Shown here one piece after another: positions 28,801 through 45,929 of a stretch of DNA of 64,000 nucleotides. The notes below the pieces were generated by a model. That model saw only the letters and a program-made list of their open reading frames with translations, ran no database searches and was not told where the DNA came from. The position numbers were made by a program, and so were the translations under genes. Numbering within the stretch: the first letter of the stretch is position 1; every line of letters begins with the position of its first letter. The stretch is taken from contig NZ_CP055157.1 in NCBI RefSeq assembly GCF_013367775.1, positions 2,683,001 through 2,747,000 of the forward strand, given 5' to 3'. Source of the DNA: Microbulbifer sp. YPW1. Its GTDB lineage: Bacteria; Pseudomonadota; Gammaproteobacteria; Pseudomonadales; Cellvibrionaceae.

Positions 28801-28912
28801 GGCCAAGCACCGGGTGTCGACTTTCAGAACCGCTGTGAATACTTCCCTGTACGCTGCGTCGGCGACGTCCTTGTCGCCGACGCTTCTGAAAACCGACACC
28901 CGGCTCTTGGCC
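28801..28912. repeat. Structured dispersed element, copy A
   Basis: This long imperfect hairpin is built from nested stems: GGCCAAG/CTTGGCC (28801-28807 with 28906-28912), CCGGGTGTCG/CGACACCCGG (28810-28819 with 28894-28903), TTTCAGAA/TTCTGAAA (28822-28829 with 28884-28891), and an inner 11-bp hairpin (28856-28866 with 28873-28883). A one-sided 26-nt bulge (28830-28855) ends in TCCCTGTACGCT. Copy B at 45824-45929 has the same architecture with different arms. It fills the convergent gap between rhlB and cysZ. Confidence 0.75.
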
Positions 28913-28937: not shown

Positions 28938-28979
28938 AGACATAAAAAACGCGGGCCGATGCCCGCGTTTTTTATGTCT
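28938..28979. terminator. Bidirectional terminator between rhlB and cysZ
   Basis: A perfect 19-bp inverted repeat (28938-28956 with 28961-28979) with loop CGAT has a GC-rich core and six-base A and T runs, so it works in both directions. It lies 3 bases from the cysZ stop codon. Confidence 0.92.
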
Positions 28980-45823: not shown

Positions 45824-45929
45824 CAAGGTGCTGGTGCAAGTATTTCGAATCGTTGTGCATACATCCCTGTACGCTCCGGCGCCGCCATCCATGGCGACGA
45901 CGGTTCGAAATACTTGCCCTAGCACCTTG
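45824..45929. repeat. Structured dispersed element, copy B
   Basis: Nested stems are CAAGGTGCT/AGCACCTTG (45824-45832 with 45921-45929), a perfect 13-bp CAAGTATTTCGAA stem (45837-45849 with 45904-45916), and an inner hairpin (45876-45888 with 45891-45903, two mismatches). A one-sided 26-nt bulge (45850-45875) ends in TCCCTGTACGCT and matches the bulge of copy A at 22 of 26 positions, while the arms do not match copy A. It lies in the convergent gap between the membrane protein and ppiC. Confidence 0.75.

Follow-up and report, generated by a model that had tools for sequence, protein, structure and literature searches.

The two structured copies found in the analysed stretch of Microbulbifer sp. 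YPW1 DNA (64,000 nucleotides, hereafter the window) belong to a dispersed multi-copy family that shows presence and absence at orthologous sites, a strand-specific fold with compensatory change, and conserved loops at a conserved spacing. The best reading of the element is a YPAL/RU-2-type family extending across the class, with a putative CsrA/RsmA-type loop pair. On balance, we consider it probable that the element is a mobile intergenic repeat of the YPAL type whose minus-strand RNA binds CsrA/RsmA, where the binding is predicted from the sequence. The two copies and their parts, with 5' and 3' given in the sense of the RNA strand, are:

28801-28912, minus strand: copy A, whole element; match to covariance model (CM) R1 with 91.6 bits, E = 1.9e-22; folding energy -71.8 kcal/mol
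28884-28912, minus strand: copy A, 5' arm of the outer clamp helix
28856-28883, minus strand: copy A, inner hairpin with an 11-bp stem and the hexaloop AAGGAC (ANGGAN)
28832-28854, minus strand: copy A, core hairpin GUAC-AGGGAA-GUAU with a lower GC/GC stem and a one-sided 5-nt bulge
28801-28830, minus strand: copy A, 3' arm of the outer clamp helix
45821-45932, minus strand: copy B, whole element; R1 match with 81.9 bits, E = 8.3e-20
45903-45929, minus strand: copy B, 5' arm of the clamp helix
45876-45902, minus strand: copy B, inner hairpin with the hexaloop AUGGAU
45852-45874, minus strand: copy B, core hairpin GUAC-AGGGAU-GUAU, containing GUACAGGGAUGU, an exact match to RUACARGGAUGU
45824-45850, minus strand: copy B, 3' arm of the clamp helix

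The strong folding of both copies, claimed in the original prediction, was evident on either strand, with z-scores against shuffled sequences of -11.6 (copy A) and -9.8 (copy B) for the strand as given and of -10.1 and -9.8, respectively, for the opposite strand. Likewise, the 26-nt cores at 28830-28855 and 45850-45875 carry the same letter at 22 of 26 positions, as had been counted. The core pattern occurs at two places in the window, compared to none expected, and the R1 matches at E values up to 0.01 in the window were copies A and B and no others. Both copies are located between convergent genes, copy A between the genes for a DEAD-box helicase and CysZ and copy B between a gene without a Pfam match and a gene for a PPIC-type isomerase, and in both cases the RNA strand is the sense of the minus-strand neighbour gene. 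The separate perfect inverted repeat reported beside copy A is indeed present: it is a 19-bp inverted repeat with A/T-rich ends at 28938-28979, between copy A and the CysZ gene, and is likely a bidirectional terminator. In a search of the whole window against Rfam at gathering score, three tRNAs and nothing else were detected.

The same core was found far beyond the window. With up to one mismatch, it occurs 33 times in the YPW1 genome and not once in the reversed control, and R1 matched at least 118 places in this genome at E values up to 0.01, a lower bound as 150 of 1488 candidates were scored. Across 13 congeneric genomes, YPW1 being the first, the R1 counts were 118, 145, 106, 1, 1, 136, 80, 0, 72, 3, 7, 2 and 50; these and all other CM counts are lower bounds, with 150 candidates scored per genome, or nine per genome in a search of 398 genomes of the phylum. 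In the latter search, under strict filters, R1 matches were obtained in 28 of the 398 genomes (YPW1 included), and all 28 belong to the same class, the 398 being tabulated without a breakdown by class. Twelve named genomes reached via matching loci, and thus picked because each of them carries a copy, contain 10 to 109 R1 copies each. A relaxed core pattern, in which the upper stem was left free and the loop was fixed, matched in 47 of 369 genomes of the class, with up to 369 places in one genome, compared to five single matches in the reversed control. Hence the covariance-model search proposed at the outset yielded copies both in the genome and in its relatives (0-145 in the 12 congeners), and the impression of similar cores in other marine gammaproteobacteria proved right, with CM and pattern matches across the class.

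Several comparisons indicate that the copies move. Relative to YPW1, orthologous sites are filled in one genome and empty in the other at the Microbulbifer loci L045 and L095, and the second copy of a doublet is present in one genome and absent from the other at L110 and also at L148 and L154; a sixth comparison of this kind (L061) aligned poorly. Of the neighbouring copies in YPW1, 23 pairs are less than 700 bp apart; all 23 are inverted and the RNA strands of 20 are divergent. Three inverted pairs in YPW1 (586421-586989, 1681686-1682376 and 1765475-1766192) surround single small predicted genes of 66, 119 and 126 aa, an arrangement that resembles a composite element. The first 3 Mb of the 4.58-Mb YPW1 chromosome are densely populated with copies, and the remainder sparsely. 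A tandem array was observed at locus L296 in genome G573, with at least six copies at a period of about 227 bp, all on one strand; its units also carry a GTAGGAGCGGCTTCAGCCGCGAT-type REP, and the last unit has a CCC/GGG-type core. With regard to mobile replicons, BLAST searches with copy A against plasmids and phages, and with the copy of genome G067 against plasmids, gave no match, and the search with the WN033 copy gave one Halomonas record and no Pseudomonas plasmid. The Pectobacterium copy matched 16 plasmids of Klebsiella, Citrobacter, Escherichia and Shigella (identity about 81%, query coverage 40-77%), 14 of the 16 being typed as conjugative, and it matched in 5 of 5426 E. coli genomes. 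At the one plasmid site that was inspected, the copy adjoins transposase remnants and metabolic genes and is therefore probably a passenger.

Within their own subfamily, the arms of the YPW1 copies alternate between conserved and hypervariable blocks. Copies A and B share one plan, as had been predicted; their arms, which had been taken as unrelated, are those of divergent members of a single subfamily. Covariation among copies, which together with the existence of further copies had been named beforehand as the test of the prediction, was present in three alignments. The covariation score was 0.626 for 83 chosen copies (0.176 when shuffled, at most 0.211 when slid), 0.904 for 40 CM-found copies from 27 other genomes (0.188 and at most 0.159) and 0.792 for 115 YPW1 copies (0.203 and at most 0.163), where the sizes of the scores are indicative, as shuffles ignore relatedness and a CM leans towards its own fold. 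The first of these alignments derives from 161 copies picked by a 17-base core, of which 118 (26 from YPW1 and 92 others) passed a filter for paired arms and 8 from YPW1 plus 75 others were used; since the copies were filtered in this way, its covariation is partly selected, and its 35 of 41 pairs with double changes were no better than shuffles (34.1). The 40 copies were hand-picked from the matches listed for the 27 genomes, and both the 40- and the 115-copy sets owe their detection and alignment to a CM, a procedure biased towards the fold. Among the 115 YPW1 copies, all 26 arm pairs of copy A show changes on both sides. Compensatory change could be followed more cleanly at a single orthologous site, which in three low-copy congeners is flanked by genes for a TldD-like and a DUF4159 protein. 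In the two sequences compared there, 28 of 28 arm pairs are kept, with six pairs changed on both sides, two changed on one side and none broken, and one of the three congeners carries the element in inverted orientation with respect to its flanks.

The mismatches left in the arms differ between the two strands. When the arms were extended by Watson-Crick pairs only, in a sample of 30 YPW1 and 131 other copies from which weak-arm copies had been excluded, the leftover mismatches in the given orientation were A-C in 64 and G-T in 9 cases for the YPW1 copies, and A-C in 134 and G-T in 40 cases for the copies of other genomes. In the CM alignments, which lean towards standard pairs, the ratio of G-U to A-C on the complement strand was 164:19 for YPW1, or 121:19 without one fixed column, and 52:14 for other genomes. 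Because the arm mismatches on the complement are mostly G-U and rarely A-C, this is the strand with the conserved single-strand fold. The predicted covariation of the arms around a conserved core held; the core itself, however, is paired, and the fold that is conserved belongs to the opposite strand.

On the complement strand, the core reads AGCG UACAGGGAUGUA UUCAC AGCG, and what had been described as an unpaired bulge of 26 nt is a small hairpin with a compensatory stem, of the form GUAC-AGGGAU-GUAU with an ANGGAN hexaloop. Both free pairs of the upper stem were complementary in 135 of 150 places among the matches listed (chance, 1 in 16), with five stem types, the loop having been part of the search pattern. 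Among the YPW1 copies, the free pairs of the core stem are C-G in 63 and U-A in 43 copies and C-G in 65 and A-U in 45 copies, respectively. In the lower stem, the third pair was scored wherever the adjacent GC was the expected one (147 of 161 copies) and was G-A in 126, G-C in 14, C-G in 5, G-U in 1 and U-A in 1. The length of the core had been given as fixed, but 3 of 30 YPW1 copies have about 14 extra nucleotides. These copies (L002, L003 and L029) have the extra core block in common (AGCTAGGCGCCCC...), and in this sub-lineage the lower stem of the core hairpin has apparently been lost.

The inner hairpin, the loop of which lies outside of the selecting core pattern, displays ANGGA in 138 of 161 copies, with N being G in 79, U in 49, A in 6 and C in 4. 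Hairpins with an ANGGAN hexaloop were counted on the RNA strand of each copy: among the 115 YPW1 copies, 74 have two, 2 have three, 37 have one and 2 have none, and among the 40 copies of other genomes, 36 have two, 3 have three and 1 has one. At least one such hairpin is therefore present in 113 of 115 and 40 of 40 copies, respectively, compared to 1 of 155 copies on the complement of the RNA strand and 6% of mononucleotide shuffles. Where a copy has exactly two such hairpins, their starts are separated by 23 or 24 nt (106 of 110 copies).

CsrA dimers span pairs of binding sites spaced about as far apart as these. According to our model, the functional single strand would be RNA, and the minus-strand transcript of the element would fold into a long clamp helix presenting two ANGGAN-loop hairpins 23-24 nt apart, placed such that one CsrA dimer could hold both. 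The CsrA/RsmA consensus is given as RUACARGGAUGU in the loops of short hairpins (PMC7937890), and binding of CsrA/RsmA would account most economically for the two conserved ANGGA hexaloops and their fixed spacing. Such binding might protect or tether transcripts that contain the element or, alternatively, titrate CsrA when many copies are transcribed. We tentatively entertain a broader version, in which a selfish repeat would have spread through Gammaproteobacteria by means of a portable CsrA/RsmA docking module, new copies would put transcripts under the control of CsrA, and copy-rich genomes (at least 100 copies, mostly with two sites each) would hold a dispersed sponge that competes with or replaces sRNAs of the CsrB/RsmY type. 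According to the same study, each of the three Rsm proteins of P. putida (RsmA, RsmE and RsmI) pulls down intergenic stretches adjacent to ISPpu8 and a long palindromic region (PMC7937890); as candidate family members, these Rsm-bound palindromic regions are a lead for the CsrA reading.

The distribution of csrA was compared to that of the repeat. In a set of 40 genomes, selected because they carry the repeat or are related, TIGR00202 (csrA) scored above cut-off in 38, and in the other two (YPW1 and G376) the expected place is masked. As csrA (PF02599) is found in 312 of 369 genomes of the class, its co-occurrence with the repeat says little. Matches to PF02599 were present in 42 of 47 relaxed-core genomes and in 31 of 34 genomes of another listing. 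The five relaxed-core genomes without a match are YPW1, G343 (85% complete, 36 places), G069 (88%, 22 places), G196 (98%, 6 places) and G008 (75%, 2 places). The absence from YPW1 was rejected as a refutation, the expected place being masked there, and the genomes with copies but without a csrA match led us to lower our confidence in CsrA binding slightly. In a separate observation on the congeners G369-G380, csrA and repeat numbers seem to run in opposite directions, on few genomes and uncorrected for kinship: those in which 9-24 csrA matches were counted (at E values up to 10, and so including weak matches) have 1, 1, 3 and 7 repeats, with one exception of 80, those with a single csrA have 50-145 repeats, with one exception of 2, and G375 (80% complete) has up to four csrA matches and no repeat.

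We also considered the genomic context of the copies, with gene positions taken from a hexamer gene finder and not from an annotation. The YPW1 copies form 95 clusters, of which 89 could be placed in gaps between genes (69 tandem, 15 convergent and 5 divergent); five overlap predicted genes, three of these being small genes between the copies of a pair, and one was left out. Among the cases in tandem gaps, 35 have the RNA strand in sense and 24 in antisense orientation in YPW1, compared to 34 and 23, respectively, elsewhere (n = 57). The pooled orientation of 69:47 (p = 0.05) is nearly random, and so slight a bias speaks against strict cis-regulation at every site. The near-random orientation, the one inverted orthologous copy, the copy-bearing genomes without a csrA match and the copies with one loop (37/115) or no loop (2/115) all count against the CsrA reading.

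The main rival is a single-stranded DNA intermediate of transposition. Accordingly, the element would be a non-autonomous, REPIN-like hairpin transposon of which the folded strand is mobilised, and the ANGGA loops would be contacts of a Y1/HUH or other transposase and not of CsrA. We consider this rather unlikely, although several observations fit it: the close pairs are all inverted and mostly divergent, the copy number ranges from 0 to 145 within one genus, orthologous sites differ in presence and absence, the fold is strand-specific with little orientation bias, and some copy-bearing genomes lack a csrA match. In addition, G-T pairs in single-stranded DNA could likewise favour one strand. 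On the other hand, Y1_Tnp genes do not track the copies, as genome G380 has 50 copies and no Y1_Tnp match and genome G375 (80% complete) has no copy and five Y1_Tnp matches. The three Y1_Tnp genes of YPW1 have no copy within 1.5 kb, or within 10 kb among the at least 118 copies listed, and contact with a transposase alone would not account for two loops at a fixed spacing that agree with the CsrA consensus and leave its N free. The link to a RAYT-type transposase that had been proposed thus found no support, and mobilisation of the RAYT/REPIN kind was rejected, as the Y1_Tnp count does not follow copy number across the congeners.

A second alternative, which we disfavour as improbable, is that the complementarity of the arms arose from template-switch correction of palindromes during DNA replication, with no selection on a fold. 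It would agree with near-perfect pairing despite rapid divergence and, at the TldD-like/DUF4159 site, both with the 28 of 28 pairs kept, six of them double-changed, and with the inversion between the arms. Correction of this kind should, however, be strand-symmetric, in contrast to the G-U to A-C ratios of 121:19, 52:14 and 134:40, and it does not account for the conserved loops; template switching may nevertheless contribute to the similarity of the arms. That the element is an ordinary terminator or an mRNA-stabilising 3' hairpin with incidental loops is very improbable. Its intergenic location and the proportion of convergent (15/89) and divergent (5/89) clusters, compared to 35/281 and 40/281 of the gene pairs in the same regions, would suit such a role, but no T-run directly follows the helix, a separate terminator-like repeat with a T-run lies beside copy A at 28938-28979, and a stabiliser has no need for a conserved pair of ANGGA loops at fixed spacing.

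If CsrA binds the element, a global post-transcriptional regulator would have a large, mobile and species-specific set of sites that is invisible to gene annotation, YPAL would gain a molecular function, and a transposable repeat would be rewiring a regulon. Such binding could also explain the palindromic intergenic regions in the Rsm pull-down, and the congeners with 0 to 145 copies would represent a natural experiment. Even without CsrA, the copies constitute a class-wide family of structured repeats of which, in the available parts of the literature searched, the Yersinia/Erwinia branch alone is described. Nothing in these parts joins CsrA to YPAL-type repeats, CsrA is not mentioned in the accessible text of the YPAL papers searched, and a literature search with sequence fragments of the element returned an unrelated match only.

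Among known systems, the REP/REPIN-BIME repeats with their RAYTs are mobile palindromes with inverted doublets and variable copy number, and palindromes of the REPIN/RAYT system end in a conserved tetranucleotide. The element resembles them as a mobile intergenic palindrome with inverted doublets and a copy number that varies within the genus, but differs in showing no RAYT association and in having about 110 nt, three helices, hypervariable paired arms and CsrA-type loops. CsrB/CsrC and RsmX/Y/Z are single-locus sRNA genes, with which the element has in common that a single RNA bears several A(N)GGA hairpin loops; here, by contrast, the repeat is dispersed and mobile and the two sites are located inside a long clamp helix. 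At least two A(N)GGA hairpin loops are present in 39 of 40 copies from other genomes and in 76 of 115 YPW1 copies, including A and B. The TwoAYGGAY RNA motif of Rfam has, by its name, two AYGGAY loops, and it matched neither in the window at gathering score nor in eight loci at E values up to 10. A(N)GGA motifs are described as generally occurring in pairs (PMC4383904).

No Rfam name had been known for the element; a relative exists in Ysr224 (RF02770), yet YPW1 copy A (27.0 bits) and the YPW1 copy at locus L001 (26.5 bits) stay below its gathering cut-off of 70 bits. Compared to the eight loci, Ysr224 exceeded the cut-off with the Pectobacterium copy alone (73.3 vs 70 bits), and five further copies in four of the eight loci matched weakly (E = 0.019 to 9.9). 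The Ysr224 model represents the complement of the strand favoured here. The closest system is YPAL/RU-2, described by Delihas 2007 and by De Gregorio 2006, the latter as cited in PMC2229807, PMC2759123, PMC2267715 and PMC2847712. It is presented as a 168-bp mobile palindrome of Yersinia and Erwinia that is 'co-translated' with upstream genes, with target duplications of 3-26 bp and targets at dyad symmetry (PMC2229807), and with 37 to 144 copies in ten Yersinia species and two in Y. ruckeri (PMC2847712). Like YPAL/RU-2, our element is an intergenic, multi-copy palindrome, and its copies differ in presence and absence between orthologous sites. Furthermore, the RU-2 letters published in PMC2759123 contain CCGCGCC-AAGGAU-GGCGCGG and UAC-AUGGAU-GUA at a spacing of 24 on one strand only, that is, the same inner and core hairpins on the same strand, the spacing here being 23-24. 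The two differ in that the arm sequences here are other ones, the copies occur class-wide, and the conserved part is read as a putative CsrA-type hairpin pair.
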